In this document: positions 6,721-60,286 of the stretch, one piece after another
Position numbering within the stretch: position 1 is the first letter of the stretch
Layout: each line of letters opens with the position of its first letter
Source of the DNA: Mya arenaria
Taxonomy: Eukaryota; Mollusca; Bivalvia; Myida; Myidae
Assembly: GCF_026914265.1 (NCBI RefSeq)
Contig: NC_069124.1
Coordinates: 26,444,989 to 26,508,988 of the forward strand
Reading direction: 5' to 3'
Length of the DNA: 64,000 bases
Notes under the pieces: model-generated
The model's database searches: none
The model's input: only the letters and a program-made list of their open reading frames with translations
Told to the model about the DNA's origin: nothing
Position numbers and translations under genes: made by a program

Positions 6721-6919
6721 AACGAATGCAGCAGCGATTGCCACTCTCAAAGAGCCACAAAATTCATGAAGACAGGCGATTCTAAAGTTCATAATCGCAA
6801 TTTCACCGTAAAATAGAAGTGTAGCAATCACATGAATATGTCGACCTTCGGTTAAGATCCCGCCACCCAACAACATCATTGAATTGCAATCCGTTATCCA
6901 ATAAGCGGCTAAATTAAAA

Positions 6920-8697
6920 TGTAAAGATTTTTTCTAGTATAATAAATGACAGAATATATGCTTGGGTCGAGGAACACGAAATCATTGAAGAGTCACAAGC
7001 AGGTTTTCGTTCAGGCTACTCTGTAGTTGATAAGTTATTTTGCCTACAAAGTATGGTTCAGAAATATATTTCAAAACCGGGGGGCCGCTTCTATGTCCTT
7101 TACGTAGACTTTCAGAAAGCGTTTGGTTCCCTTATACACTTTAAATTATTCGCTAGCCTTTCAGAAAAGGGCATGAATGGTAAGACTTTAACAGTTCTTA
7201 AGTCAATGTATTCAAAATTAAGCGCCCATGTAAAAGTTGAGGGAAATAGCATTTCCCAATCATTTTTATGTAACGTAGGCACCAGACAGGGGGATTTGAA
7301 TTCACCAATAATATTTTCTCTTTACATCAATGACTTAGTAGCACATTTAAGAGACCCATGCAGAAATGGCATATTTATAACTAATGATATTCCTGATATT
7401 GTTTGTCTTATGTATGCTGACGATGTAGCGAACTGTGCAGATACGGCAAACAATCTCCAGTTGCAACTTAATGCTGTTTCTAGCTTTTGTAAAGATACGA
7501 GTACATGCAAATGAATTTTAAAAAAAGACAGAAATAATAGTATTTCAGAACGGTGGTCCATTACGTAACTATGAGAAATGGTTTCTCAATGACCATCCAA
7601 TTAACACCGTATCCGTATACAAATATATGGGATTATTGTTTACCGCGAAACTTTCCTGGACAACGGCTAAAACTAAATTGGTGTCACAGGCACGCAAAGC
7701 AGCCTTTTCCATAAAACAATTCCAAAAGCCGTTCGGCTATTTTTCGCATTCTGATATATTTAAACTATTTGACAGTATGGTATCTCCAATTCTCACCTTC
7801 GGGTCTGAACAAGCAGAATTGTGTAGATATTTTATTGGAGTGAATTCGACAGTAAATACAAGTATGGTACTTGGGGAATGCGGTCGACTTCCACTTTGCA
7901 CTGTATATTATTCATAATGAATCAAATTTTGTTGCAAATTGTTGCAAATGCCAAATCAAAGATATCCAGTTAATTGCTATAAAATGATAAAATCGCTGGA
8001 CGAGATGGGTAGGTGAACGTTGGCAACTGGTGTTAAAAATCTGCTGTTTAGGTTTGGCTTTGGTTATGTTTGGATCTCGCAGGACGTTGGGGGTATACAT
8101 TTATTTCTATATACATTCAAGCAGCGTTTAAACGATTGCATATCCCAAACTTGGCATAATGATGTTATTACTTCATCGCGATGCGGCACTTATCAGTGTT
8201 TTAAATCACTGTTAACCCCTGAGAAATATCTAACAATAGACATACCTTTTAAAATCAGACTAGCACTCGCGCGTTTTAGATGCTCAAGCCACAAGTTAAA
8301 CATTGAAATAGGTAGACACAATTATGTTCAACGTGAAAATCGAATTTGTTTACACTGTTTCAGGTATTTAAACATCCAGGTATGTAATTGAATACCACGC
8401 CTTGTTCGAGTGCCTTCAATATGAGGAAATACGAATAAACCATCTATATAACTGGTATAGTAGTCAGAGAAATCAAATTTCATTTAATTGTTTAATGAGC
8501 AGTAACGATAGCTTTGTCGTTAAGCATGTTGCATATTTTCTCTAGATCAAATATTGACTGCAGTAGATAATAGATAAAACATAAAGCAGTCAGTATTTCA
8601 GGGTGGCACAGATTATATTATTGTAAACGTTTGTTGATGTTGTATTCTGGGTCGGAGGCCTTTATTTACAAATAAATTGAGTTGAGTTGAGTTGAGC
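6920..8697 (+). mobile_element. 5'-truncated non-LTR retrotransposon (LINE), decayed reverse transcriptase
   Basis: Reverse-transcriptase motifs appear in order: QAGFRSGYS near 7000, YVDFQKAFG near 7100, GTRQGDLNSPIIFSLYINDL near 7280 and YADDVANCAD near 7415, the last being the polymerase catalytic box. The frame breaks near 7514 and resumes at 7562-7917 (KYMGLLFTAKLSW, LGECGRLPLC), then again at 8020-8391 with the RNase-like or zinc-knuckle tail region (RLALARFRCSSHK). Several stops and shifts make it inactive. The element ends in repeated TTGAG units at 8672-8697, typical of a LINE 3' tail. There is no endonuclease domain, so the copy is 5'-truncated. It sits inside duplicated block copy A. 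Confidence 0.88.
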
Positions 8698-14597: not shown

Positions 14598-16436
14598 GCC
14601 AGAAGTTCGTGTAGGAAAAGCTTGATAAAATGAAAACAATATGCAGCATATCTTTAAAACTTTCATACAATAATAATCAGGTAATATGAAATTAGGAATG
14701 CGAGTTTCATCGAATAGCATGTTATTATGACAACGTAGTGATCACTATGGAAACAGGTGGTCGCGCGTTCCTCCGCAGTTGCTAAAATAACCCATGACAA
14801 TATCTTGTTTTTTTTTACCAATCACATTGAAACAAATAAAACGGCGCGAAAGTTTGCACATTTGACGTGACGTCAATAACGAGTGATGACGGGAAGTTTT
14901 AAGTCAGTGGGTTTGTTTGTTTGTTTCAAAGTAAGCATTTTAGACAGAACGGTATAGTTATTTTTTGTTTAAAATGACGCCAGAAGACAGATTGAAAAAA
15001 CGGGCAGTGATAGAGATCTGTGTGAACCTAGGAAAAACTCCATCGCAAAACTTAAACTGATGAATGAATCATCGAGTGAAACTCCAGTTAAGCGAATGCT
15101 CGTGTACAAGTGGCACAAGCGGTTCAATGACGGGCGAGACAGCATTTGTGACGACGTGAGGTCTGGGCGACCGGTTTCACAAACTACGGAGAGTGACGTC
15201 GAGGCCATGAGAAACATCGTTGAAGCTGATCGTCGAGTCACTCTTCATGAAATAGGCAAGATGTTGGACATGAGTTATGGGTCGGCACGGACGATAATGA
15301 AAGACAGTTTGAAAATGAGTCGAGTGAGTGCGCGTTGGGTTCCACGGCTGCTGACAGAAGATGAGATGAGCAGAACAGTACGGGAATCACGCCGATTCTT
15401 AGCTCGGTACGAAAAGGAAGGAAACCGTTTTCTTGAGAAGATAGTCACTTGCGATGAATCTGGCTGTATATTACGACCCTGATAAAAAACAGCAAAACAG
15501 TCAATGGAAGACTACCGGTTCCCCGCCTCAGAAGAAGGCACGATCATCCCGCTCGATAGGAAAGCATATGTTTATTGTCTTCTTTGATGTGCACGATGTT
15601 ATTCTACTCCATGCAGTTCCACGGGGCCAATCTGTGACGGGTGCTTACTATTCTAAGGTTAAGTGATATATAACAAAATTCATTTTTATCAATATTTAGT
15701 TCTTGATTAAATCTGCATAAAACACTGTTTAAAAAGTTTATGATTAAAAACATGGGATTGAATAAGTGTTAGTTTTAGTTATGATACTTGATGAAGTACG
15801 CAAAACGCGACAAATGCATTATGTTATTAGCCTCAGTTGTGTTCTCCTATTAAGGTATTGAGGCGTGACTTGTACAGGGCGATGGCATTAAAGAGACCAC
15901 AGGCGTTGCATAATGCGTGGATTCTTCACCAGGATAATGCACCAGCGCATAGATCGGAGGAGGCCCAGACTACAGCGACATTCCAGCTTGAAGCGGAGAT
16001 CCTTCCCCACACCCCTTATTCGCCGGACCTAGCGCCATGTGATTTTGCCCTTTTTCCGATACTTAAATGTGAACTGAAAGGTAAAACGCTTCAATGACTT
16101 TCAGGAATTACAGAGTGAACCTCAGACACGCCTGTACAAGTCAGAGTGGTTCAGTGACATTTACCGGCAGTGGGTAGCGAGACATCGACGTTGTATTGCG
16201 GCGAACGGCTTTTACTTTAAGAAGTTATGACGTTGACGTCAGATTCTGATGTTTAAACTGCGGGGGCTATACTGACCTCATGTTAATGAAAAAGCAGTAG
16301 TTTCCTTAATATTGTATGTATCAGTTTGAAATTTTATATGTCATTTACACCTGAAATATATTTTATAGCGAGCTGACGTTCGTTGAAAAATGTTAAAATG
16401 TGTAGATTTTATTTAGCAATTCCACGAACTTCTGAC
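14598..16436 (+). mobile_element. mariner-type transposon, defective, inserted at IRG stop codon
   Basis: TA target duplications (14596-14597 and 16437-16438) flank inverted ends G(C/T)CAGAAGTTCGTG. The transposase starts near 14973 (MTPEDRLKKRAVIEIC) and continues at 15060-15482 with the helix-turn-helix region and first catalytic aspartate in VTCDES. Then come VFFDVHDVILLHAVPRGQS, HQDNAPAHRS with the second aspartate and YSPDLAPCDFALFP with the third; by my count 35 residues separate the last two aspartates. Frame breaks near 15045, 15460 and 16095 make it inactive. A 197-bp GT...AG interval (15658-15854) splits the frame. At 1839 bp it is longer than a typical 1.3-kb mariner, mostly because of this interval and a 375-bp leader. 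It lies antisense to the IRG gene. Confidence 0.9.
15658..15854 (+). other. Intron-like interval inside the mariner transposase
   Basis: Removing these 197 bases joins TCT-AAG to GTA-TTG and restores the expected SKVLRRD reading between two conserved transposase blocks. The interval begins GTTAAGTG and ends CTCCTATTAAG, so it has donor, pyrimidine-rich tract and acceptor. It has in-frame stops and is not a multiple of three. It could be a true intron or a small insertion that happens to have these ends. Confidence 0.55.
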
Positions 16437-17632
16437 TATATCGGCGCACTCGTTACATCGCACATCCATTGCTCGAACATTATGGTCACATTATAAGCCT
16501 CTTTTTCGCACATATTCAGCAATCTGTTTAGTGTATAGTAACAAATAGGAAAGCTAGCTGCCGCACATATTAAATGTCCGGAAGAAGGGGCAGCCCATTT
16601 AAGCAAACTCTCTGTGGCTTCCGATACAGCAAATTCAGTACACATCTTAAGAAAGCTATCACTTGACGCTAAGAGAATATACGAAGTCATATCGAGTCGC
16701 TTGTATATATGCTCTACGTTTATACACATCTTCATTGCAAGCTCTTGCATCGTTTGCTTATCTGTTCCCAATTGTGACTTGTAAAAGTTCACCTCCTTCA
16801 TGAGTATTTCAACTTCATAAGCTAATCCAACTCCCTGAATCGCAAGCGAGCCAATGGAAGCAAGCATTGCCTGATATTTTATTCGTGAACGAAGAGAAGC
16901 TACCTTTTCCTTTAGTATGTTCGCACTTGCTGCCGATATCGAAAATATCAATGATTGCTTAATGAGTGACGGTGCGTCGACAATGAGTCTTTCCATCAAG
17001 TTATCAAAGTAAAATCGTCTGGTTTCATAGTTGTCGATCAGGAAAACATTGTTTGGGCCAATATTTATTGATTTCAATTGTTCTGCTGTTTTGGTTCGAA
17101 TTTCCTTGAGCAGTTTGACTCGATTATGTGAACGCGGGTGGGCTTTTTTGTCCGAGCTAACATCAACGTCTATTTTGGTTCTAACAAAATAAAAATGCTT
17201 TTCACGTTTCGTAATTTCTTTAACCAGCCATAGGTCATTTTCTTTAAACCGACACTGTGTAATCAATATAAAAAAGTGGAAACTCTCAATTTTCACAGCT
17301 TTAAGGTAAGATTCTTTCGGAAAGTTTGGTGTTCCTACACCAGGAAGATCAATAAACGATAATGTCTTCTTACAAGGGTGTCGAAATTCTTGGCATGCAG
17401 GCGTGCACTCATTACAGCCTATCTTTGCCGCATAAGGATCGTCCGAAGTAATTCCAAGCATTTCATTTATAAAGGACGACTTGCCTGATCCTGATTCACC
17501 AATGATAGCAAACCGTATCACTATATTTTGCCAAAGATTCAACTCTGAGATGATCTTCTTCTGCAAAACGGAATATCCTCCTGTGATCAGTGTTGCTTCA
17601 TGTTCATCTTGCAGATTATCCACGAAGAGATC
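16436..17632 (-). CDS. IRG locus 1, large GTPase exon
   Basis: One long exon encoding 398 residues. It begins after the acceptor ATATTTAAG at 17633 with GAT-CTC-TTC-GTG. There is no ATG near its start and the first candidate codon in the open frame is GTG, so the start must come from upstream exons. It carries G1 GESGSGKSSFINEML, G3 FIDLPGVGTPNFPK and G4 VRTKIDVD, then long helical stretches with YYTLNRLLNMCEKEA near the C terminus. It has the GKS (not GMS) form of G1. The last codons TSAPI-stop differ from the TSTSIE-stop of the paralogues because the stop codon is made by the mariner end. Confidence 0.92.
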   Translation of the reverse strand, partial: DLFVDNLQDEHEATLITGGYSVLQKKIISELNLWQNIVIRFAIIGESGSGKSSFINEMLGITSDDPYAAKIGCNECTPACQEFRHPCKKTLSFIDLPGVGTPNFPKESYLKAVKIESFHFFILITQCRFKENDLWLVKEITKREKHFYFVRTKIDVDVSSDKKAHPRSHNRVKLLKEIRTKTAEQLKSINIGPNNVFLIDNYETRRFYFDNLMERLIVDAPSLIKQSLIFSISAASANILKEKVASLRSRIKYQAMLASIGSLAIQGVGLAYEVEILMKEVNFYKSQLGTDKQTMQELAMKMCINVEHIYKRLDMTSYILLASSDSFLKMCTEFAVSEATESLLKWAAPSSGHLICAAASFPICYYTLNRLLNMCEKEAYNVTIMFEQWMCDVTSAPI

Positions 17633-18422
17633 CTTAAATATGTAAGAAACATTTAATATACATTCTTAATGACACGTTGCATAGACCTATTTTCATAAAG
17701 CATTTAGCCTATGGGACGAACATGTGCATTCAAGAAGTTTCTCCCCCATCTCTTGCGCCAAATTTTGGATCCATCCCTTTTGCAAGCTTTGTGATCTGTA
17801 TTCGATTGTGAACATCGTCCACAACCCTGGTACTTTATTCCGTTTGCATTTTTAGGAATACGTAATAGTCTTTCGTGGGTATCCGACGATTGTTTATGGG
17901 TCATTAGGGGAAACTGAAATACGTTACTTTAAACAATTTTATGGTGGTTAGAATGGTTTTGTATAAAGTAATAAAGCAACAATATTAACTTACCATTGAC
18001 CCGTCATCAGAATCATTCACAGCTGCATTCGCTAAAACAATAAAGAATCACATGCGAGGAAATCCTAGGTTATTATTATATACTTTTTGTGTAACACGTT
18101 TTATAGATACACTTAATAGTTTTCCTTTCTAAGAAATAATATTTCCTCCCCCGTAGAGGGCACATTACGAGGCAAACCTCGGCAACCACTTGAAGACCGT
18201 TGCACAGCCAATATTATGCAGACAACACGACAGGTTCATACAATTAGAAAATATGTAAATAGGAACTCGTTTTTAATCAGTTATGTGTATGCAAATGTGG
18301 CCTTTGATACGTGATATACACTACATTATGCGTTAGCGGTGATACATCATATCTTATTCTTAATTGGTTTGATAAGTGTGACAGAATGGGCCGTACGTGG
18401 AGAGACAGTTAACCAGACAGTG

Positions 18423-18512
<90 letters not shown>

Positions 18513-21500
18513 TTCAACGTGAATTGGTTTCTTGGACAAATTTAAAGCATTTCATATTTAAGTAAAATCACTTTAACGTCTAAGCTACTGAAATATTACT
18601 TCATGCCGGAAATTCCTCTTGGTATTCCATAGACGACCGAAAAGCTGAATAACTCTTTAAAAGAAGCTGAGTAGTAAAATAAGATAAATCCCGCTAAACG
18701 CTGATAAAGTTTACTTAAATATTTGTAATATTTTTGCCAAGATCGATTTAATTCAGAAAGATATCAGTCTTAAGAAGCCTTCGATAATCGGACAATATTC
18801 AAACGAAACTAGACAAAAGGTACTAAACCGATCGGCGACTTACCGCCCCAAATGTATTCTTGCAAATTTGTGTGTATATGTCTTTAGCGTTTACCCAGTG
18901 CCATTTAACCGGGTTTATGTTTAAACTTTTTGCTACTGAGCTTGTTTCTGTAGTTTTAACTAAGTATTGAAAGGATGTCGTTGTTAGTTTTGTTTTCATA
19001 ATCGGTCGTATCCTGCCATGCCGCGATATAAAGCGCGATAACTCGATCGATACAACCGCACGAAAGACCACGAGTTGTTTGAAAAACAGTTGACCAAAAT
19101 GTGTATGGGGGAATTGTTCATTATCTCTACGATATTTCGGGCGATTTATGTATGTTACGAAAAATCAAGATTATCTTTGGAAATGCACGAGAATACAGAG
19201 ATCTTTGTACGATATAGTTGGAATTACTAAGGGTTCGTACAAGTCAAAATGTTCGGGTTTATAAGTTATTAATCGGTAAGTTGAGACGTAATGTGTACGG
19301 CTTGGTACAATACTCTTCGAGTTAATAATCATCTTTTAAAAAACGGAATTAAAATACTACAACATGATATGGGCTTTCAAAATTAAGTAGCCCCATCAAC
19401 TGCGTTGAAAATCAATGCTAAATATTGAAAAAAACCTTCCCGTCTTAACAAGTGCGATACAGTCTCATATATTTAAACATAAACAGTCGAAGCCCACAGG
19501 CGTATACTCGATTGGATCGTCTTTCTCGTTGACACGAACTCGATGTAAAAAAAGTTCTTGTACGCGAAGTAATATCGTAGTGGATCAGTCATCATTTGGC
19601 ACACTTATGTTCGCGTTGTGTCTCATATTTTCGCAATGGTGTAGAAATAGCTTTAAGTCAGCAAGATCATAAGACATCATGAGCAATTGAATGTCGTAGC
19701 GTATGGTAAGCTGTACGCGAAGCTATCGACGCCGATCATTTTCAAACAGCTTATGTTCCGTAGGCCATATCCGTCAGGCGGCAAAGGTTTGAATTCATAC
19801 GACATATCTAGCAAAATATTTCTTCTCCCTCACAGCGCCAGCTCGTTGCAACTCAAAGCAAAAGTCTCGACAGCGTCAAGGGTGTACAATTACAATATTA
19901 CCGAGTTCCTTTGGACATTTGTCAACAGAAGTTTTTAGTTAATGCCGATTATTTGCTTAACGACAGCCGACATTCGCACGATAGTCCACCTAATAAATGA
20001 ACAAGCACCGACATGATCCAGAGTGTTAACTGATAATGTTAAATATAAACACACGTAGCTTATCTTATGCTTCGTCTCAAATTAAACACTTAAACGGAAC
20101 TTTCATCTGGAAAAAGGGGAAAAACAGTGACATTATGATTAGTGTAGAATAACATATTATTCCTTCAACTATAATGCGGATATAACACGTACCTTCATTG
20201 TCTGTCTGAATGGCTTTACAGATTGCTTGATTTCGACCAGAAACGAAACCAATATTAAAGAGAAATAGAACATTTTCATCAACTGGTATAACATGGTTTA
20301 AGAATGGTTCAATTATTATGACATGAATTGACTCAGTATAAGTAAATGAGCCTAACTACACACATAACGAATTTTAAAAAAAATCATCTTAATTTAATTA
20401 ATTGTGAATTATACCCGACGTGACATAAATATGAAAAATACTTAGATGATACGAAACCAGACATTCAATCTAGCATAAAATAGTTGAAAATAATATACCC
20501 TCCGCATTATGAAAAGCATTGATTTCAACAGGATTTGAAGGCAATTCAAGATGATTCCCATTTTCGCACAAACTGATTTTCTATATGGCTGATGAAGATT
20601 TGGTAAATGGACTTTTAATAGTTCATATATTTTTGTCTGATACTGGCAGTAACAAACTGGATTTAGAAAGCAATTCTAACAAAGGTTGACAACTACTAAT
20701 TGGAAAAAAGCGTTTCGACATAGTTGCATCAGTTTTAATGATTCTACAAAGTGGCGTCAATATTCCTGATGCTACATGTTGGCGTTAGTGTTCTAGATTG
20801 TACAAAGTAGTGTCAATAAACTTGATTCTACATAGCTACGTCTGGATTCGTTATTATACAGAGGCGTCAGTACTCTTGACTTTACATAGTAGCGTCATTA
20901 TTACTTATTCTACGTAACTGCGTAATTATTATTCATATAATTCACTGGCTTCAGTATTATTGTATTATTGTTGCTTCATAGTTGCGTCATTAATTTTCAT
21001 TTTCCATAGTGGCGACAATATTCTTGATTCTTCGTAGTTGCATAAATATTCTTAATTCTAAATTATGGCGTCAGTATAACTGAATCAACACAAAAGTGTC
21101 AGAAATAATTATGTAACATAGTGGCGTCCGTTTTCTTGATTCTATTATTGTATTTTATAACACGTACCTTCGTTGTCTGTCTGAACGGCTTTAGTGACTG
21201 CTTGATTTCGACCTGAAAGGAAAATTCTCCTTATCGTACATGGTGAAGATCTACAAAGGCAAATGTCTGAAGAATGTTTGCCTTATTCTGAATGTTTCTT
21301 ATTTAGTATTGCTTTTGATCATTTGAATTGTCTATGCTGCAAGTAATCATATTTATATTTGCGCATCCAAGCCTCTGAAGTTCCATTTATGTTACAAGGA
21401 AAACGTAAGAAAGGTTGAATTTAAAAAAAAGATGGCCTATATCGCTCACCTGAGTAAAACATTGTGCTATAGACTTGTTGATCATTAAAGGACAGTAACA

Positions 21501-24500
21501 GGGATTTGGCTTCTCTGATGTATAATGCCAATTCACATTCTCACCAAACTTTGTGATTATTGGACAAATGCTTAAAAGGTTATTGATAGGACAAGAGCAA
21601 TTTTAGGTTATTTCTATAATTAAAGCCCAATAACTCTCGGGTAACTACAGCAATTTTGCTAATTATCAAACACGTTCATACATATTCTGACCAAATTTGG
21701 TCAAGATTGGACAAAGGGTTAAAAGTAATTGATCGGACTACATACTGGATGGTACCTGTCTGCCCTTCCATACACCATAGGTGGAACTATTATATGTCCA
21801 GTTTTTTTAAACAGGCGTGTAAAAACATGACAAATACGTATTTGTTTAAAAGATACAATTGGCAATAACTCTTACAATATTTAGGTTGGATTTAAATAAC
21901 TCGTCATAAAAAAAATCACAATTTACTGTGAATAAGCTCATGAAGTTTGAAGTTGGTACCTTTAAAGATTTTAAAACAATAACATAAAAAACAACAACAG
22001 GTGACCCAAATTCGAACTTGACATGAAAAAATCAAAACAACCTTTCTGACAAATTTCGTGGAGGTTTGGGCTGAAAATGTTACCTCTAGAGGGTTTAACA
22101 ACGTTTTTCTATATTTGGGCATTTTGACCTAGTTTTTGACCCCGGATGACCCATATTCGAACTTGAGCTAGAAATCAACGGTAAAACATTTCTGACAAAT
22201 TTCCAGAATATTTGGGCCGAAAATGTTACCTTCAGAGTGTTAACAAGGTTTTTTTCATCTTCTGGCTCTATGACCTTGTTTTGACGCCAGATGACCTTTA
22301 TTCGAACTTGATCGAGAAATCAACGAAACAACCTTTCCAGGATATTTGGACTGTAAAGGTAGCCTCTAGAGTCGTCCGAGTAATTACTGGAACAAACATC
22401 CTGACCAAGTTTCGTGACAATTGAGGCAAACATGTGACCACTTGAGTGTTAACAAACTAAAAGTGGACGGACGACGGACGACAGACGATGGACGACGGAC
22501 ATTCATCGATCCTAATAGCTCACCCACAGCTTACGGCTAAGGTGAGCTAAACACAAAACTTGTATAATTACACAAACATTATACAATCTGTTGAGTTTTA
22601 TTGCGGATTAAGCTGTGTAATAGACTGATGAACCATGCAGTCATTATTATTTTCTTTCATTAAAATTTCCGTCCTAGAATAATCGTATGCATATGCAATA
22701 AAATCGGGACCATGGCAAGGCGAATAAAATACACCTAACTACGACATATTTTTCCGAGGAGCTTGTTGAATTATAATACCTTTACGACATTACACTTGTA
22801 ATATGTTGTATATCGCTTCTACTTACCCTGGACATAAGGCTAGTTTCGAAGCGGCCATATTTTGTAGCAAAGGTCAAGACAATGTAAGGGGGTTTCTAAC
22901 GTTTTATTAAAAATGAAAAGTCTGCTTAGAACGTCTTTTAAGACAAAGACGCTCTACGAAACAAAAAATAATAGTATATATTATCAACAAATTCGTCTTT
23001 ATATAATTTATGTATTTAAGCTAGCTTTGTGTCATACAAGATGTGCACTTCAAGTGTCCCCGGGTGGAAAAAAATCAAATAAACTGCCATAACTTAGGTT
23101 ATTAGAATGATCTGTGCTAAGTAGTTGATAAAATATCAATATTATAAGAGTAACAATTTGGGAAATTGTCTGTCCGACTGTTCAAGTCATTATGATTCTT
23201 CAAAACACATGACCGCTAGTCGAGGAAACATTTTCTTCTGCTTATTCTGTTCAACACGACGTCGATTCGGACGCACTCTGATTGTATAAATTGCCGCTAC
23301 TGCCATAATGTCCAAAGCATCGGGATTTTCGATAAATATCGGATTGTGAATCTATAAGTCGAGTGTTTAGTGAACATTCATTTGCAATATTATGTAACCG
23401 TCCATTACCTTATAGCTATCCTTTCCAGGCAGAAAAACCGATTAACTAGGTCGGCATTAATCTTATGTTATCGGTAGCTCCATTCCACCAAATCTATTAT
23501 CGTATGATAGTGTTTGCGAGTGTGATGACTTATGTAAGACTGCACTACGAATAGAACAACAAAACTGTAAAGTGAAGCCGCAGGCGATTGCTTTCGCGTA
23601 TTCTAATAACCTGAGTCACAAGTAATCTTTTATTATCAAAGGCATAGTATGATTGTAGATTACGCTTCCTTGCTTAGTACGTAGGGCGTTATATATAGTT
23701 TCTTATCCTGGTGCATTCTAGGTGAACTTTACAGTCGTATATATACTATTTTCCATTCGATCTCTTCCTATTATAACTGTGTACATATGCAAAGAAATCA
23801 CGACCGGGACATACTTTTGATTTTACATAATGACCTTTGTTTGTCTTGATTCTTTTTTACTCTGTCAGTATTTGTGTTAATATCTTATTACATGCTTGCT
23901 ATCGCAAACATGATCACTTACACGGTAATATATGATATTATTACACGTACCTTCGTTGTCAGTCTGAACGGCTTTAGTAACTGCTTGATTTCTACCTGCA
24001 AGGAAAATACTCATCATTATATATCATTCGAAAAATATGAAGACAAGCGTCTTAAGATTGTTTGCCTTAATTTGAAAATTTTAGTTTTTCGTATAATACC
24101 GCACAAGGTTTTACTCCTCAATAAATTAGCTATGTAAGCTAAGACATAACGACTATAAACTCCATGATTGATCGTTAACTTCCATGGTCATTGTCGTAAT
24201 ATTCCTCATATTAAAGTGCTTGCGAGAATTTCACCGTTTGTTTAAGAGTGACATATTCTTGCATGAACCTGCAAGACGTATATAATACAGCTTACTAGGG
24301 CAGAAGAAATTCCGAATTCATTTATGAAGAGCATGTTCAATTTACGACAATGCCCTTGCACGACATATAGCGATATTGCTACCACTCAGCCAACTGCTGT
24401 GAAATTACCTGTGTTGTCTGTCTGGACATCTTGAGACAAAAACGATTTAACAGCTGTAACGAAAGTACAACTGATTAATATAAATTTAAACAATTATGTG

Positions 24501-24744
24501 ATTGCAATAGTATAAATCTGTAAACGCGTGGATTGTGACAATAAGTTCCAGCAGAACAAGTTAAAATCCATATTTTGATTTTGCGTTTGAAACAAGTATG
24601 GCTATTTTTGTATAATTTGTGAGGTAAATGACGTATTCTACCTGGCCTAGGCGCATCGTTAACATCGTTCTTTTTTGTAAGCCAAACGTACAAAAACAAC
24701 CCAATCATTCCAATAGTAAGGGTCAGCTGTATCCACTCTAGCAT
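16436..24744 (-). CDS. Membrane-anchored immunity-related GTPase (IRG), spliced gene model
   Basis: Proposed coding exons in transcript order: 24642-24744, 24409-24453, 23951-23995, 21168-21212, 17994-18031 and 16436-17632. All have GT-AG borders and compatible phases. The joined frame is 490 codons without a stop. Residues 1-34 hold a hydrophobic segment (LTLTIGMIGLFLYVW) followed by lysines. A linker of related 15-residue cassettes follows, then the GTPase: GESGSGKS (G1, near 137), DLPGVG (G3, near 187), TKID (G4, near 244), a FLIDN segment where IRGs have G5, and a helical C-terminal region. IRGs are dynamin-like GTPases that act on vacuole or organelle membranes in cell-autonomous defence; vertebrate members attach by lipid or amphipathic helix rather than by this kind of anchor. 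The acidic N-tip and following lysines predict a cytosolic GTPase. The gene ends at a mariner insertion. Confidence 0.8.
17633..17993. other. Last intron of IRG locus 1
   Basis: Contains a minus-strand open frame at 17704-17904 with a cysteine-rich patch (GCGRCSQSNTDHKACKR). An acceptor-like TTTCAG precedes it, but it has a stop and no clear donor. It has no counterpart in the matching intron of locus 2. It might be an alternative terminal exon or chance. Confidence 0.4.
17994..18031 (-). CDS. IRG locus 1, 38-nt linker exon
   Basis: Reads ANAAVNDSDDGSM, preceded by TTGTTTTAG and followed by GTAAGT. It enters in phase 1 and leaves in phase 0, joining the cassettes to the GTPase exon. The same exon is conserved at 43253-43290 (ANAVVNGSDEDTT) and 58953-58990 (ANAVVNGSDVDKT), which supports it as real coding sequence. 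Confidence 0.85.
18032..20192. other. Intron of IRG locus 1 with a TA microsatellite
   Basis: Holds a (TA)n run at 18425-18510. The stretch 18820-19150 has patchy similarity to 26340-26650, both containing GGTCGGCGAC-like and ACCAAAATGTG phrases, so it may be an old dispersed repeat. Open frames at 19415-19938 have no family resemblance. Confidence 0.5.
18425..18510. repeat. (TA)n microsatellite
   Basis: About 43 uninterrupted TA units inside an IRG intron. The open frame of alternating Tyr-Ile across it is an artefact. Confidence 0.97.
20193..20237 (-). pseudogene. IRG locus 1, fourth cassette exon with lost acceptor
   Basis: Encodes GRNQAICKAIQTDNE, clearly a relative of the cassettes at 21168 and 23951, with a good donor (GTACGTG). 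The acceptor reads TTTCTG where the sister cassettes have TTTCAG or TTGCAG, so it is probably skipped. The frame itself is open and the phase is unchanged. Confidence 0.75.
20745..21155. repeat. 29-bp satellite GTGGCGTCAGTATTCTTGAT, intronic array
   Basis: Degenerate repeats of a unit close to TAGTGGCGTCAGTATTCTTG plus ATTCTACA lie between two cassette exons. The same unit forms the larger arrays at 44470-44888 and 46775-47665 in the corresponding introns of IRG locus 2. Confidence 0.85.
21168..21212 (-). CDS. IRG locus 1, third cassette exon (45 nt)
   Basis: Encodes GRNQAVTKAVQTDNE, phase 1 at both ends, with acceptor TTCCTTTCAG and donor GTACGTG. Nearly the same peptide as the cassette at 23951. 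The flanking intron is also similar (AGGAAAAT...TGTTTGCCTTA), showing that the exon was duplicated together with its surroundings. Confidence 0.83.
21430..22552. mobile_element. Dispersed repeat with inverted ends and internal tandem units
   Basis: Ends are inverted copies related to GCTCACCTGAG / CTAAGGTGAGCT. Inside, a unit of about 140 bp repeats at least three times (GATGACCCATATTCGAACTTG-type phrase near 22001, 22146 and 22287), followed by GGACGACGGACGACAGACGA near 22470. Noncoding, lies in an IRG intron. The class of element is not known to me. Confidence 0.6.
22553..23950. other. IRG locus 1 intron, nothing recognised
   Basis: No coding segment with splice borders, no tandem structure and no inverted-repeat element was recognised on either strand. 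Confidence 0.45.
23951..23995 (-). CDS. IRG locus 1, second cassette exon (45 nt)
   Basis: Encodes GRNQAVTKAVQTDNE with acceptor TCCTTGCAG and donor GTACGTG. Phase 1 at both ends. Its peptide equals that of the cassette at 21168 while the DNA differs at several sites, which suggests the protein sequence is being kept. Confidence 0.83.
24409..24453 (-). CDS. IRG locus 1, first cassette exon (45 nt)
   Basis: Encodes AVKSFLSQDVQTDNT, ending in the same QTDN motif as the other cassettes. Acceptor CGTTACAG and donor GTAATT. Same length and phase, so it is a diverged member of the cassette series. Confidence 0.78.
24642..24744 (-). CDS. IRG locus 1, first coding exon with membrane anchor
   Basis: ATG at 24744 follows directly after the acceptor ATATTTCAG, implying an upstream noncoding exon. 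It encodes 34 residues: a short tip MLEWIQ, a hydrophobic core of about 16 residues, then LTKKNDVNDAPRP, ending in a GTAGAA donor. The homologous exon at 48223-48322 has the same acceptor-ATG arrangement. No signal-peptidase-like site was seen, so an uncleaved anchor is preferred. Confidence 0.82.
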
Positions 24745-25850
24745 CTGAAATATAAGTAGAAGCCATTACCTGCTTTATGGTCATCGTTATAGTTGGTTTA
24801 TCTCATAGCGATAAAAACTTGTATGTAATGCTATTAGACCATGCAGAAGGTTGTTGTTAATGTGTGCTATAGCTGGAAACTTCCGACTTCTGATGTTGTA
24901 TTGTATCTGCTTAGGTATTTGCATTTCATATTTGTATTTAGTTGCTAAGTTTGTGCAATGTTCTCCTCTTATATCTGCCCTCTGACCAACCCAATAGTTT
25001 GACCTACATACGATGATTGCCTTACATTGACGTCGCTTTCGAGGAAACTAACCCTTATACTATAAGTATATATTTCCGCAACACTAGTGTCTATGTTTAA
25101 CCGTGACACTTTATATAAAATGCTACCTTCGATATAGTCCTTTCTTTGGAAATGACAAAAGCACTTATCTACTCTTTTATGATGAAAAAGAGAATCACTT
25201 GGGAAACTTTCCATAACTTAACGTCGACAGCTAAGGGAAATATATTGCCACATGAGAAACCGGACATAAAACTACATAAAAACGGCATACACGTAGGCAA
25301 AATGAGGCTTTATTTAAAATTAAATTACCAAAATGCAAATACTTACGGCTGATCAGTATCGTTTCTTTTTACTAATAAATGATACAAGAATCAGTTAAAA
25401 CTAACTCCGATTGTCTCTTTCTATATCAATATAAAGTTTTATCTATAAATGTTAATAATATTCCATGTATGTTTGAAAATACACCTTGAGATTGTAAAAA
25501 ATAATTGCTATCTTGATTACCTTTATTGTAAAATGACTTAAACTCGGCGCAATTCCAATATTCCCATTATATCAATCAACCAAATGAACCAGAGTCGGTG
25601 TATTTGTAATAAAAGCATTTCTTTTCATTTCAAATGCGCTATGAATGTTATGTCATTTGTATAATGTACTTGAAGTTTATTCATGGTTTACATCGAAAGA
25701 CTTAAGTATATATTCCTTCTTAAATTTCATGCTAAAATCAATGATTATCAAACGCTTTAATAGTCATACCGCGTTACAAGTACAAAGGTGCAGCGTGTAT
25801 CTTTATAAAGTCTCATGTTTCTTCTATCTCATTCGGAACATCTCGCTTAT
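24745..25850. other. Upstream region of IRG locus 1
   Basis: Expected to hold the promoter and a 5' noncoding exon, but neither could be fixed. Parts recur upstream of locus 2: 24830-24920 resembles 27230-27330 and 48690-48800, and 25370-25560 resembles 27880-27990 and 48950-49050. Such conservation over three copies marks it as part of the duplicated block. Confidence 0.5.
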
Positions 25851-26143
25851 TTCTATCGAAAATAACCTCGGATGTATGCCGGTATATTATACATATATAA
25901 AGATTTTAATTGTAGTAGTATCTAATTGTGTTTTGAGGAATATTTTGTATAATTAAGTCTAAATTGATTGACAAAGTAAAGAATTATTGCATAAATAATT
26001 AAAATCCCACGAGTACAGCGATAAAGTATTACTGCTGGGTAAAACATACTACGCGATCTACATGCAGCTTAGTTTATTATAAAGATTTCTGACATTGTAA
26101 ACTGTCCATATACATCCGAGGTTGCTTTCGATGGAAAATGGCC
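25851..26143. mobile_element. MITE family 1, second copy
   Basis: Same inverted ends as 10032-10295 (left AATAACCTCGGATGTATGCC, right with ATCCGAGGTTGCTTTCGATG). About 293 bp, noncoding, upstream of IRG locus 1. Confidence 0.8.
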
Positions 26144-26867
26144 GAGGTGGTCCGGATGCTACTATTCATGTTATTAATTTCTTTTCTGAGTTTAAATATA
26201 GTTGCATACAACCTGCATTTATTTAGATTGTAATTCGCCCGAGGTCTTATCATCAATAAAAGGCAGATGATGATACAACAGGTCTGCCGGGGCAGGATAG
26301 AAGCACATCAAAAACAAACAACGTTTAAGTTTTCATCTTTGAAAGTGATCGGTGATCGGACAATTTAAAAACATACGTAGTTAACAGGTCGGCGACCTAT
26401 TGCCCAAACAGTTTTCTTGCAAAATGTGGGTTTTGTTATGCAGTTGTTGTGTGTTTTCATAGTTCGGCGATCGGTCGTACCTCCAGGTGAATTATCACTA
26501 CTACCCCTATCACGCTGTCTCGACATTCTTCCGACATGCTGTGATGTAAAAGGCGAGATAACTCGCAAGATACTGATTCACAAAAGGTTAACCAAAATGT
26601 GAGTGTATTTTACGACATCTCAACGATATTTTGGCCATATATACGATTACGGTACATCATCACGAAATTGTCATCGGAAATGCACGAACATGTAGAGCTT
26701 AATAGGACGACATTAGTGTTGTTATCTATATAAAGCCGCACTCCACTTTACCTACTATTGTATAAGATTGTATGCGACTAGGATTGATTTTGAATGACCC
26801 GCAACAGAACAACCCAAAATGTGTAGGTAGGTGCATTCGAGGGATTTAAGTCTCATGTAATCTTATA
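26144..26867. repeat. Noncoding, part of a local duplicate with 28.3-28.6 kb
   Basis: 26190-26310 resembles 28400-28555 (CAACCTGCAT...AATTCGC...CAGATGATG...GTCTGCCG...GGA). Together with the pair 25740-25830 / 28290-28390 this shows a duplicated upstream segment of roughly 1 kb. Open frames here have no family match. Confidence 0.5.
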
Positions 26868-27185
26868 AGTATCTATCATGTGTTTCCGGTACGGATCGAA
26901 AAATCCGACCCGAGGGCACGCGCGTAAGCCGGTAATGAGGCTTGCCGATTGATATGATTGATATTTTTTTCTTGCATACCAAAAATATGGATTTGTGGAA
27001 TAATTTATGTAGAAAACGCACTTTTTTTACATTTCACCAAAAAGCGCGCGAGACGTTGTGTACTGACGTCATAAAGCGCAGTAATTTTAAATCACTATCG
27101 ACGTCAAATAGTTCCTTTAAAAATCGCGCTTCACGTCTTACGATTATTTATTTTCAATTTTAATTAAAAGTATTGTATATATATT
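26868..27185 (-). mobile_element. Hairpin-ended repeat, reverse-oriented copy
   Basis: Reverse complement of part of the element at 40301-40823. It shows GTTTCCGGTACGGAT, AAAAATCCGACCCGAGGGCA, then the body with GACGTCATAAAGCGCAGTAA and ends near ATTTTCAATTTTAATTAAAA. The left hairpin is incomplete and the far part of the element is missing. Noncoding. Confidence 0.75.
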
Positions 27186-31223: not shown

Positions 31224-34200
31224 ATGTTACGGTGGAGGAAATCGATAATGAAGAAGAGCATATCATGTAATAGAATAGCTGAGGAATCCGCTGGTGGAGC
31301 AGACTGTAAAAGAATAGCTGAGGTACTTGATGGTGAAGCAGACTATGATACAATAGCTGTGGTACCTGATGGTAGAGCAGACTGTAATCAAATAGCTGAG
31401 GTACTTGATGTTGAAAAAAACTGTTGCAGAAAATCTGAGGTACCAGATTGCGGAGCAGACTGTAAAAGAATAGCTGAGGTACCTGATGTTGAAGCAGACT
31501 GTAATATAATAGCTGAGGTTAATGCTGGTGAAGCAGGCTGCAATATAATAGCTTAGGTACCTCCTTGTGAAGCAGATTATAATGGAATAGCTGAGGTATC
31601 TGATGGTGAAGCAGACTGTAATGGAATTGCTGAGGTATCTTTTGGTGCATCAGACTGTAATAGAATAGCTGAGGTATCTGATAATGAAGCAGACTGTAAT
31701 GTAATAGCTGAGGTATCTGATGGTGAAGTAGACTGTAATGGAATTGCTGAGGTATCTGATGGTGCAGCAGACTGTAATAGAATATCTGAGGTATCTGATT
31801 ATGAAGTAGACTGTAATGGAATAGCTGAGGTAGCTGATGGTGAAGCAGACAGTAATGGAATAGTTGAGATATCTGATGGTGGATAAGACTCCTATAGAAA
31901 AGCTGAGGTACCTGATAGTGAAGCAGACTATAATAAAATAGCTGAGGTACCTGTTGGCGAAGCATACTGTTACAGAATAGCTGAGGTACCTGATGGTGGA
32001 GCAGACTGTAAAATAATAGCTAAGGTACCTGATGGTTGATAAGACTCCGAAAGAATAGCTGAGGTACCTGATGGTGGAGTAGACTGTAATAGTATAGCTG
32101 AGGTAGCTGATGGTGAAGCAGACAGTAATGGAATAGTTGAGATATCTGATGGTGGATAAGACTCCTATAGAAAAGCTGAGGTACCTGATAGTGAAGCAGA
32201 CTATAATAAAATAGCTGGTGTACCTGTTTGTGAAGCATACTGTTACAGAATAGCTGAGATACCTGATGGTGGAGCACACTGTAAAACATTGGCTTAGGTA
32301 CCTGATGGTGGGTTAGACTCCGAAAGAATAGCAGAGGTAACTGATGGTGGAGCAGACTGTAATAGAATAGCTAAGGTACCTGATGGTGGATTAGACTCCG
32401 AAAGAATAGCTGAGGTACCTGATGGTGGAACAGACTGTAATTGAATAGCTAAGGTACCTGATGGTGGATTAGACTTCTATAGAAAAGCTGAGGAACCTGA
32501 TGGTGGAGCAGACTGTAATAGTATAGCTGAGGAACCTGGTGGTGAAGCAGGCTGTAATAGAATAGCTGAGGTACCTGATGGTAAAACAGACTGAAACGTC
32601 ATAGCTGAGGTATCCGAAGGTGGAGCAGACTGTAATAAAATAGCTGAGGTAACTGATGGTGAAGCAGACTGTAATAAAATAGCTGATGTAACTGTTGTTG
32701 AAGCATACTGTTACAGAATAGCTGAGGTACCTGATGGTGGATCAGACTGTAAAATAATAGCTAAGGTACCTGGTGGATCAAATTCCTATAGAATAGCTGA
32801 GGTACCTGATGGTGGATCAGACTGTAATAGAATAAGTGAGGAACCTGATGGTGCTGCAGACTGTAAAAGAATAGCTGAAGTTCTTGATGGTGGTGTAGAG
32901 TGTACTAATATAATAGCTGAGGTTTCTGATGGTGAAGTAGACTGTTATAGAATAGCTGAAGTACCTGATGGTGGAGCAGACTGTAAAATAATAGCTGAGG
33001 TACTCGATGGTAGATCTGACTGTTATAGAATAGCTGAGGTACCTGATGGTGAAACAGACTGTAATAGAATAGCGTAGGTAAATGATATAGGATCAGGCTT
33101 TAAAAAATAAGGTATCTTAAGATGGTAAATCTGACTGTTATAGAATAGCTGAGGTACCTAATGGCCGAGCAGACAGCAAAATAGTAGCTGAGGTACCTGA
33201 GCGTGGAGCAGACAGTAATAGAATAGCTGAGGAACCTGATGGTAGATATGACTGTTATATTAAAGCAGAGGTACCTTATGGTGGAGCAGACAGAAAAAGA
33301 ATAGCTGAGGTACCTGATATAGGAGCAGACTGTAATATAATAGCTGAGGCATCTGATTGTGGAGCAGTATGTAATGTAATAGCTGAGGTATCTGATGGTG
33401 GAGTACACTGTTACAAAACCGCTATGGTAACTGAATGTGAAGGACACTGTAATAAAATAGCTGATTTACCTGTTGGTGAAGCAAACATTTACAGAATAGC
33501 TGAGATAACTGATGGTGGAGCAGACGGTAAAATGATAGCTAAGGTACCTGATGGATGATCAGACTCATAAAGAAACACTGAGGTACCTGATAGTGGAGCA
33601 GACAGTAATAGAATAGCTGTGGAACCTGATGGTGAAACAGACTGTAAAAGAATAGCTGAGGTACTTGATGGTAGAGCGGATGTTATAGAACAGCTGAGGT
33701 AACTGATGGTGAAGTAGACTGTTATAGTGTAGCTGAACTACCTGATGGTGAAGATGACTGTAAAATAATAGCTGCGGTTCTTGAGGGTGAAGCAGACTGT
33801 AATAGAATAGCTGAAGTACCGGATGGTCAATAAGACTGTTAAAGAATAGCTGAAATACCTGATGGTGGAGCAGACTGTAAAAAATAAGGTATCTGATGGT
33901 AGATCTGACTGGTATAGAATAGCTGAGGTACCTGATTGTGGAGCAGACAGCAAAAGAGTAGCTGAGGTACCTGATGGTGGAGAAGACAGCAAAATAATAG
34001 CTGTACAATAGGTACCTTATGCTGGGGCTGACTGTCATTGAATAGCTGAGGTACCTGATCGTGGAGCAGACTGTACTAGAATAGCTAAGGTACATCATGG
34101 TGGAGCAGAGTGTTATAGTACAGCTGAGGTACCTAATGGTGGAGCAGACTGTTATAGAATAACTGAGGTACCTGATTGTGAAGCAGACTGAAATAGAATA

Positions 34201-41504: not shown

Positions 41505-43290
41505 TGATCGAAGAAGAACAACATTAACGCACACAAACACATTGAAATATTAAAACAAGAAGTGATGCTTAGTAACTAACAGTCGCACACGGTCATGAAT
41601 AAGCTGATTGACGGTTTAAATGTACTTGTTCTTATGTCTACCATAAAGAAAATATGGTGATATGATTAATTCAACAGAGCAGCGGTTTGTAAACACAAAC
41701 TGGTAAACTAATAAACACGATACATTGTACAAGTGTATGTTTGGCATTGTGAATCCTATTAAAGTCACTCGATTGAGGTACTTGTTTGGTTTACCACCCA
41801 TTGCTCGAACGCTTTGTTCACATTCTGAGCCTCTTTTTCGCACATGTTCAGCAAACGGTTTAATGTATAGAAACAAGCAGGAATGCTAGCCGCTGCAGAC
41901 ACTAAGTGTCCTAAAATGGGAATACTCCCTTTAAGCAGGCTCTCCAACGTTTCAGACAAAATGGTTTCAGCATACATCCTAAGAAAGCATCTCTTGACGC
42001 TAAGATAAAATGCGAAGTCATACCGATGTCCTTGTACAACGATTCCAGAGACATACCCATCTTTGCTGCCAGCTGCTCCATCGTTTCCTTATCTGTTCCC
42101 AATTGCAACTTGTAAAATCTCACTTCCGTCAGGAGTATTGCAACTTCACAAGCTAATCCAACTCCTGGAATCGGGGTAAGCGATCCAATTGAAGCAAGCA
42201 GTGCCTGGTATTTTATCCGCGAACGAAGCGTAGCTACCTTTTCCTTGAGTACGTTCGAACTTAGTGCCGATATCGAAAAGATCAATGATTGTTTTATGAG
42301 TGCGTCGACAATGAGTCTTTCCATCAATTTTTCATAATCAAACAGTCTTGTATCATAGTTGTCTATTAGGAAAATATTGCTTGAACCGACGCCTGCTGAT
42401 TTTAATTTGTCGGCTGTGTTGCTTCGAATTTCCTGGAGTAGCTTGTCTCGATTGTCTGAACGTGGGTGGGCTCTTTTGTCTGAGCTTATGTCAACGTCTA
42501 TTTTGGTTCTAACGAAATAGAAATGCTTTTTACGTTTTTCAATCTCGTTAACCAGCCAAAGGTCATTTTCCTTAAACCGACACTGTGTAATCAATATGAA
42601 GAAGTCGAAACTCTCAAACTGCACAGCTTCCAGGTAAGATTCTTTCGGAAATTTGGGGGTTCCTACACCAGGAAGGTCAGTAAACGATAATGTCTTCTGT
42701 CGTGCACTCATTACAGCCTACCTTTGCCGCTGTAGGATCGTCGCCACTTAGTCCAAGCATCGCATTTATAAAGGAGGACTTGCCTGATCCAGATTCACCA
42801 ATGATAGCAAACCGTATAATTATATTTTGCCAAAGGTTCAACTCTGAGCTGATCTTCTTCTGCAGAGCAGAAATCCCCCCTGTGCTAAGCGTTTCCTCAT
42901 ATTCCTTTTGCATTTCGTCAGACATGGTTATATGCCCAAAGGAATCCTAAAAGATGTAGAAAAGTTAAAAACAGCTACAAATAGATGAGTCAATTATTTA
43001 TGTCAAGCGTATTTTACATTAAGTAGTAATATATAACCAATTCAATAAGTTACATGGTTGAGTTATGCTGAAAGAAGATACAAAACCAATGCAAAGTCGA
43101 GCAAGCGCTGCATCTTATTTCTGGTGGAAAAACGCCATCAATTCTAGATATCTCAGTGATTCGCCCAAGATGTCCACTTGAAAGTTACGTTTAATGAAGA
43201 CAGTGTATTAATCGATAGGATGATATTATTTATATAGATAATATTTACATACCGTTGTATCCTCATCAGAACCATTCACCACGGCATTCG

Positions 43291-48222: not shown

Positions 48223-48322
48223 CAGTCCTAGGCGCATCTTTAACATCGTCCTCCATAGCTAGCCAAACGCACAAATACCAAATCGTTCAAATTGTTAGTG
48301 TCAGCTGCATCCAGTCGAGCAT
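48223..48322 (-). pseudogene. IRG locus 2 first-exon remnant
   Basis: Matches the anchor exon of locus 1: acceptor ATATTTCAG then ATG, MLDWMQLTLTI, then TGA where locus 1 has GGA. Reading on, the frame continues to DDVKDAPRT and a GTAATA donor. It is one codon shorter than its homologue. The nonsense change would stop translation inside the anchor. Confidence 0.8.
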
Positions 48323-58952: not shown

Positions 58953-60286
58953 CGAATGCCGTGGTGAATGGTTCTGATGTGGATAAAACGGTATGTAAAT
59001 ATTATTTATATAAATAATATCATCCTATCGATTAATACACTGTCTTCATTAAACGTAACTTTCAAGTGGACATCTTGGGCCAATCACTGAGATATCTTCT
59101 TTTAGCATAACTCAACCATGTAACTTATTGAATTGGTTATATATTACTACTTAAAGGAAAATACGATTGACATAAATAATTGACACATCTATTTGTGCGG
59201 CGTATCTTTTTTGTAGCTGTTTTTAACTTTTCTACATCTTTTAGGATTCCTTTGTGCATATAACCATGCCTGACGAAATGCAAAAGGAATATGAGGAAAC
59301 GCTTAGCACAGGAGGAATTTCTGCTTTGGAGAAGAAGATCAGCTCAGAGTTGAACCTTTGCCAAAATATTGCGATACGGTTTGCTATCATTGGTGAATCA
59401 GGATCAGGCAAGTCCTCCTTTATAAATGCAATGCTTGAACTTAGTGGGGACGATCCTACAGCGGCCAAGGTAGGCTGTAACGAGTGGACGATAGGTTGCA
59501 AAGAATTCCAACACCCTGAAAAGAAGACATTATTGTTTTATGATCTTCCTGGTTTTGGAACCCCAAACTTTCCGAAAGAATCTTATCTGGAACTGGAAGC
59601 TGTGCAGTTTGAGAGTTTCGACTTCTTCATATTGATAACGCAGTGTCGTTTTAAAAAAAATGACCTATGGCTGGTTAGAGAGATTGAAAAACGTAAAAAG
59701 CATTTCTGTTTCATCAGAACCAAAATAGACGTTGACATAAGCTCTGACTTCACTCATTAAGCAATCATTGATCTTTTCCATATCGGCAGTAGGTTCGAGC
59801 ATAGTCGAAAAGGTAGCTGCTCTTCGTTCAAGGATACAAAAACAGGCATTGCTTGCTTCAATTGGCTCGCTTACCCCGATTCCAGGTTTTGGATTAGCTT
59901 GTGAAGTTGCAATACTTATGACGGAAGTGAGATTTTACAAGTTGCAATTGGGAACAGATAAGAAAACCATGGAACAGCTGGCAGCAAAGATGGGTATGTC
60001 TCTGGAATCGTTGTACAAGGACATCGGTATGACTTCGCATATTATCTTAGCGTCACGAGAAAGCTTTCTTAGGATGTGTGCTATACCACTTGTGTCTGAA
60101 ACGTTGGAGAACCTGCTTAAAGGGAGTATTAACATTTTTGGACTCTTAGTGTCTGCAGCGGCTAGCTTTCCTGCTTGTTTCTACACATTAAACCGTTTGC
60201 TGAACATGTGCGAAGAAGAGGCTAAGAATGTGAACAAAGTGTTCGAGCAATGGATGGTTTACAAAACAAGTACCTCAATCGAGTAA
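58953..60286 (+). pseudogene. IRG locus 3 (inverted paralogue, internally deleted)
   Basis: Linker exon 58953-58990 (ANAVVNGSDVDKT; donor GTATGT) and GTPase exon from 59245 after TTTTAG. G1 GESGSGKSSFINAML, G3 YDLPGFGTPNF and G4 RTKIDVD are intact. After SSD about 172 bases are missing relative to locus 2, the frame shifts and stops at 59760; the C-terminal half follows out of frame at 59768-60286. Upstream of 58806 there are no cassettes or anchor exon, because the tandem duplicate was joined there. A truncated GTPase-domain product is possible but a full IRG is not. Confidence 0.87.

Follow-up and report, generated by a model that had tools for sequence, protein, structure and literature searches.

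Introduction

Mouse IRG GTPases are typically encoded by a reading frame on one long 3' exon; IRGQ (FKSG27), an IRG that has lost the GTP-binding motifs, carries about 100 extra N-terminal residues on three short exons (both from PMC1297648). The IRGs described to date reach membranes by lipid modification or by an amphipathic helix: Irga6 is myristoylated, and Irgm1 is held at membranes by its C-terminal alphaK amphipathic helix together with palmitoylation (PMC3994021). In bivalves, an expansion of Iigp5 is described for two buried species (PMC7251785). Here we analyze an IRG gene of the soft-shell clam Mya arenaria (1.216-Gb genome, 18 contigs) located in a stretch of 64,000 nucleotides (nt), C3:26444989-26508988, hereafter the window. 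This locus is probably an intact multi-exon gene coding for a signal-anchored IRG, in which a predicted N-terminal membrane anchor is joined to the GTPase through a tether encoded by 45-nt exons that we denote cassettes.

The focal protein is similar to the GKS-type IRGs Irga6/IIGP1, Irgb10, and Irgb6 in its GTPase sequence, predicted fold, and GKS P-loop, but Irga6 is myristoylated and has neither an N-terminal anchor nor a cassette tether. Irgm1 is also a membrane-associated IRG, with splice forms in which the first Met ends the penultimate exon, but it uses the alphaK helix and palmitoylation rather than a transmembrane segment, whereas the shared feature of IRGQ is the added N-terminal part on short exons. 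The first-pass annotation of the window had contrasted an anchor of this kind with the vertebrate routes of myristoylation and an amphipathic helix, an account that agrees with PMC3994021, where palmitoylation is added; an IRG with its own transmembrane anchor would differ from all of these.

Outside the IRG family, OPA1 also begins with a transmembrane segment, followed by a part encoded by short exons subject to alternative splicing and then by a dynamin-like GTPase, a layout similar to the one predicted for the focal protein, but it belongs to a different GTPase family and resides in the mitochondrial inner membrane, its GTPase facing the intermembrane space. The GIMAP GTPases (AIG1 family) are immune proteins, some of which are built into membranes, as predicted for the focal protein, but their anchors are C-terminal; against the AIG1 profile, the focal protein scores 19.6 bits, under the cut-off of 27. 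In a limited search of the open-licence literature, covering titles and abstract openings, no IRG with a transmembrane segment was described, and passages of PMC8195603 yielded nothing on IRGs.

The exon chain of the focal gene

Joined in silico, six minus-strand exons of the window, namely, the first coding exon (E1), cassettes a to c, E5, and the GTPase exon E6, form a single frame of 490 amino acids (aa) that is identical at 490 of 490 positions to the NCBI Mya arenaria model P0001, ‘interferon-inducible GTPase 1-like’ (Table 1). All five introns are of the GT..AG type, the phases past exons 1 to 5 are 1, 1, 1, 1, and 0, and E1 ends in phase 1 at the donor gtagaata. The chain is real, as annotated: the coordinates, splice sites, and phases that the first-pass annotation proposed all hold, and the exon ends are exactly those of the annotated coding exons of P0001. 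The paralogues of P0001 bear ‘isoform X’ names in the style of the automatic NCBI pipeline, which draws on RNA reads where they exist. A fourth cassette, d, was considered as a part of the protein and rejected given its TG acceptor and its absence from P0001.

As had been noticed, no ATG precedes the P-loop in the GTPase exon; yet E5 ends in an ATG exactly at the junction (Met92). One claim in need of revision is that E1 is the first exon. Immediately upstream of E1 lies the acceptor ttatatttcag, and in all 11 copies of E1 that we found an acceptor ending in atttcag abuts the ATG, so that a further exon should lie upstream, E1 being first among the coding exons only. In the unspliced focal frame, a stop occurs 8 codons upstream of E1.

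By sequence and predicted fold, the focal protein is an IRG. It matches the whole domain of Pfam IIGP PF05049 (217.2 bits versus a cut-off of 24, E 4.7e-64), and the GTP-binding motifs are intact (GESGSGKSS for G1, GxxxxGKS; DLPGVG for G3, DxPG; TKID for G4, TKxD), without the motif loss that marks IRGQ-type quasi-IRGs. The solved structures closest in sequence are Irga6 (1tq4, E 9.6e-50), then Irgb10 and Irgb6, and the first Foldseek match of the AlphaFold2 (AF2) model (mean predicted local distance difference test score, pLDDT, 73.7; predicted template modelling score, pTM, 0.70) is Irga6 5fph (E 7.0e-23, TMq 0.59). Genome-wide, 109 IRG domain matches were scored, fragments included.

A predicted N-terminal membrane anchor

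Residues 4-23, encoded by E1, are 20 uncharged, mostly hydrophobic residues that make up a predicted signal anchor, and lysines follow, as the first-pass annotation had described for its hydrophobic first exon. In a home-made Kyte-Doolittle scan, P0001 contains a single N-terminal hydrophobic segment of membrane-spanning length, with a best 19-residue mean of 1.73 in E1, the highest in the protein; the values for the E1 copies in loci L011, L009, and L013 are 2.01, 2.04, and 2.45, respectively. All six E1 sequences compared have Glu3 ahead of the segment and Lys at position 24 or 25 behind it, a pattern that predicts an N-out/C-in anchor with a cytosolic GTPase, as in the original proposal. 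The AF2 model consists of one helix (residues 2-23), an unstructured chain (pLDDT below 50 across residues 18-96), and then the IRG fold. Membrane anchoring of the focal IRG is well supported as a prediction, and the protein is probably built into the membrane rather than recruited to it.

A hydrophobic exon starting with ATG is, by itself, unremarkable because the minus strand of the window has 9 starts at which AG is directly followed by ATG (AG/ATG) and 34 open codons, of which 2 exceed a hydrophobicity of 1.7 (0 of 5 on the plus strand). What lifts E1 above chance is its identity to the annotated protein together with its conservation among paralogues, and it is on these grounds, not on hydrophobicity, that we rejected E1 as a chance frame. 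Two family-seeded protein searches yielded 90 proteins, a set that is not a census of IRGs; among the 88 with a P-loop, 7 contain a hydrophobic stretch of at least 1.3 ahead of it, namely, the Mya models with E1 (P0001, P0002, P0003, P0005, and P0008), P0067, and P0087. In P0067, the stretch is at residue 361 of 847 and so is not N-terminal. P0087, named ‘interferon gamma inducible protein 47’ in its source, has a mean of 1.59 from residue 4.

Table 1 Coordinates of the focal gene and of related features within the window
Feature	Position	Strand	Remarks
E1, first coding exon, 103 nt	24642..24744	-	ATG start; in P0001; MLEWIQLTLTIGMIGLFLYVWLTKKNDVNDAPRP
Cassette a, 45 nt	24409..24453	-	AG..GT, phase 1-1; in P0001; AVKSFLSQDVQTDNT
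Cassette b, 45 nt	23951..23995	-	AG..GT, phase 1-1; in P0001; GRNQAVTKAVQTDNE
Cassette c, 45 nt	21168..21212	-	AG..GT, phase 1-1; in P0001; GRNQAVTKAVQTDNE
Cassette d, 45 nt	20193..20237	-	TG acceptor for AG; absent from P0001
E5, 38 nt	17994..18031	-	Brings phase back to 0; final codon ATG (Met92); in P0001
E6, IRG GTPase exon	16436..17632	-	Includes stop codon; in P0001
Weak 28-bp minisatellite, intron between cassettes c and d	20739..20913	-	6.3 copies, 62% matches, score 96
Broken E1, second window copy	48223..48322	-	77.8% identity over 99 aligned bases; in-frame stop
E5 relative, second copy	43253..43290	-	Ends in ACG, not ATG
E6 relative, second copy	41795..42912	-	79% identity in 1155 aligned columns; open frames of up to 268 aa
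E5 relative, plus-strand copy	58953..58990	+	Ends in ACG
E6 relatives, plus-strand copy	59279..60256	+	Two overlapping open frames

Conservation of the anchor exon among paralogues

A DNA search of the genome located E1 in 7 places (6 on C3 and 1 on C4), and reading of the fetched loci added one copy each in L036 (gene gB) and L039 (gene gC) as well as two broken ones, in L018 and in the window itself (48322-48223), for at least 11 copies altogether (10 on C3, 1 on C4), 9 open and 2 broken; the counts of E1 and of cassettes are lower bounds. The first-pass annotation had taken the broken exon near 48223 as the sign that the design is common to a family. That copy is real, and its in-frame stop is common to the L018 copy, but the open copies (9/11) are far better evidence of a shared design.

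Compared with the focal gene, the ratios of nonsynonymous to synonymous substitutions (dN/dS) for E1 are 0.09 (L014), 0.16 (L011), 0.18 (L009), and 0.44 (L013), and those for the GTPase exon are 0.62, 0.43, 0.50, and 0.49, respectively. Thus, in none of these four comparisons is the anchor exon under weaker constraint than the GTPase exon. Among 15 E1 pairs, dN/dS lies between 0.09 and 0.67 throughout, with few changes per pair. When equal numbers of random base changes were simulated, 24 of the 5000 exons matched the hydrophobicity of the L013 version. When the N-terminal region was sought in other species with residues 1-200 of P0005 as the query, only P0005 and P0006 were found among 3508 candidates, although this search required shared 5-residue words, such that absence elsewhere is weak evidence.

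E1 is retained also where the GTPase motifs are not: P0002 has GSGNSS in place of GSGKSS and TRLPG in place of TDLPG, both changes being present in the two genomic copies, L014 (C3:26841400-26851399) and L015 (C3:26539400-26549399), and appears from its sequence to be an anchored quasi-GTPase.

The region from E1 to cassette d (window 18498-26948) has a 94-98% identical copy on a different chromosome, at C4:25532300-25550864 (L037, L034, and L031), which ends near an (AT)n repeat (window 18425-18510). We considered this N-terminal copy as a second gene and rejected it, as the stretch read contains E1 and cassettes but nothing that matches P0001 in its GTPase part.

A tether of 45-nt cassettes

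The cassettes are 45 nt in length and of phase 1-1, each coding for 15 aa, and skipping one leaves the frame intact. The number of splice-competent cassettes per gene read through ranges from 3, as in the focal gene, to 15 in the paralogues: gB (L013+L029+L036) contains 16 cassettes, 14 of these with AG..GT, and gC (L012+L038+L039) contains 15, all with AG..GT. Comparison of proteins with the genome by eye indicates the use of 10 of 14 cassettes in P0005, 14 of 15 in P0006, 2 of 3 (locus L011) in P0003, and 3 of 4 (locus L014) in P0002; P0005 is an isoform X3 from a cluster of 9 sequences. The annotated proteins, then, use subsets of the cassettes.

All 14 ‘QNQ’-type cassettes of gB and gC have a minisatellite of about 28 bp that begins no more than 220 nt from the cassette start, and none of the 17 ‘RNE’-type cassettes has one there, as expected if a unit of two cassettes plus a minisatellite was duplicated in tandem, and the arrays that follow the QNQ-type cassettes are a possible motor of cassette expansion. 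The focal gene has a single weak array. Four cassettes carry a ctg acceptor where their relatives have cag (window 20237, L015 2874, and gB 12216 and 16868), with an identical A-to-T change in all four; in window cassette d, the TG is derived, given that the L016 and C4 copies have CAG. The dN/dS for cassettes is 1.42 (6 gB/gC pairs), with only 16 changes, too few to decide. In the AF2 model of P0005, the long tether is partly helical, at low confidence.

Alternative readings of the first coding exon

Several observations weigh against the reading of E1 as a membrane anchor. The focal helix is moderate, its sum on an insertion scale being +0.88 for 19 residues and -0.66 for 17, and the AF2 pLDDT is about 60 for residues 1-20; in addition, 348 of the 5000 simulated exons match the hydrophobicity of the L011 version. 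The close paralogue L016, whose E5 matches the focal exon at all 38 bases, yielded no E1 in the genome search; L010 has an E1 with a 9-nt deletion and a cassette that lacks GT at the usual place, and no E5 was found there. Among the NCBI models, P0003 and P0008 start 17 aa earlier, which places the anchor further from the N-terminus (the 17 aa ahead of the E1 Met in P0003 had no convincing match in the loci fetched), and P0004 and P0006 are without the hydrophobic part, even though the corresponding genes have an open E1. The latter two models, together with the ATG that ends 6 of the 11 E5 copies, a possible soluble start, would fit a dual product: translation from Met92, on the E5/E6 junction, would yield a 399-aa soluble IRG of the conventional type, either alongside the anchored form or in its place. 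In splice forms of mouse Irgm1 and Irgm2, the penultimate exon likewise ends with the first Met (PMC1297648). We consider such a dual product possible but rather doubtful for the focal gene, where the annotated protein begins at E1; the ATG is missing from 5 of 11 E5 copies, and a soluble form alone would leave the strong constraint on E1 unexplained.

If E1 does insert into a membrane, the membrane could be other than the endoplasmic reticulum (ER). Mitochondrial outer-membrane anchors of the Tom20/Tom70 type are moderately hydrophobic, with lysines directly after the segment, and both features are found in E1; the topology would be the same, with the GTPase acting on mitochondria. We consider this reading unlikely, though not negligible, in view of the clearly higher hydrophobicity of the L013 version (2.45). 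A cleaved signal peptide, which would make the GTPase secreted or luminal, fits the N-terminal position and hydrophobicity of E1, but there is no basic residue before the core, lysines come right after it, no small-residue cleavage motif was seen by eye, and a GTPase in the lumen would lack a GTP supply; this reading strikes us as highly improbable. We give equally little credence to the suggestion that E1 is a chance or mispredicted exon, with the true transcript start elsewhere and the annotation repeating the same computational guess. Hydrophobic AG/ATG open starts do arise by chance, including a second one above the 1.7 threshold on the minus strand of the window, but the exon, its acceptor, and its phase recur ahead of several paralogous GTPases, and its dN/dS is low.

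A proposed membrane-anchored IRG subfamily

From these features we infer the insertion, topology, target membrane, use of tether length, and immune role described here. E1 would form one N-terminal transmembrane helix (about residues 4-23) inserting N-out/C-in, most likely into the ER and less likely into the mitochondrial outer membrane. The part that follows, residues 24 to about 91, is encoded by the cassettes and E5 and would serve as a tether, the length of which would be set by the number of usable cassettes and by which of these are spliced in. At the end of the tether, a canonical IRG GTPase would face the cytosol, where its GTP-dependent assembly would act on the membrane that holds the anchor or connect that membrane with another one within reach.

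More tentatively, the clam may possess an IRG subfamily that is permanently membrane-anchored, with its reach tuned by splicing of the 45-nt exons and, over evolution, by tandem expansion of the unit of two cassettes and a 28-bp minisatellite. Given that the anchored set includes motif-intact members and a motif-dead one, the clam could run a membrane-resident system of effector and regulator IRGs, unlike the recruited one of the mouse. If so, an anchor with a splice-variable tether would separate the action of the GTPase from its targeting, and whether an IRG works when held in one membrane would become directly testable, which bears on the use that bivalves make of their expanded IRGs. With regard to the first-pass annotation, the observation itself is confirmed, and the overall interpretation is partly supported; its suggestion that the protein would be fixed to one organelle is a conjecture.

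Other IRG N-termini and repeats of the window

In the bivalve Dreissena polymorpha, the IRGs P0018 and P0088 show an N-terminal zinc-ribbon-like match under the Pfam cut-off (25.2 versus 27 and 24.7 versus 25 bits, respectively), and bivalve IRGs may vary widely in their N-termini. The window further contains large tandem arrays of a 39-bp unit and a 177-bp unit (31266-37015 and 49816-57000, respectively), the former comprising about 148 copies, with long open frames on both strands. By eye, the open frames at 6918-8391 and 14973-15482 resemble fragments of a reverse transcriptase and the N-terminal portion of a transposase of the mariner type, respectively.

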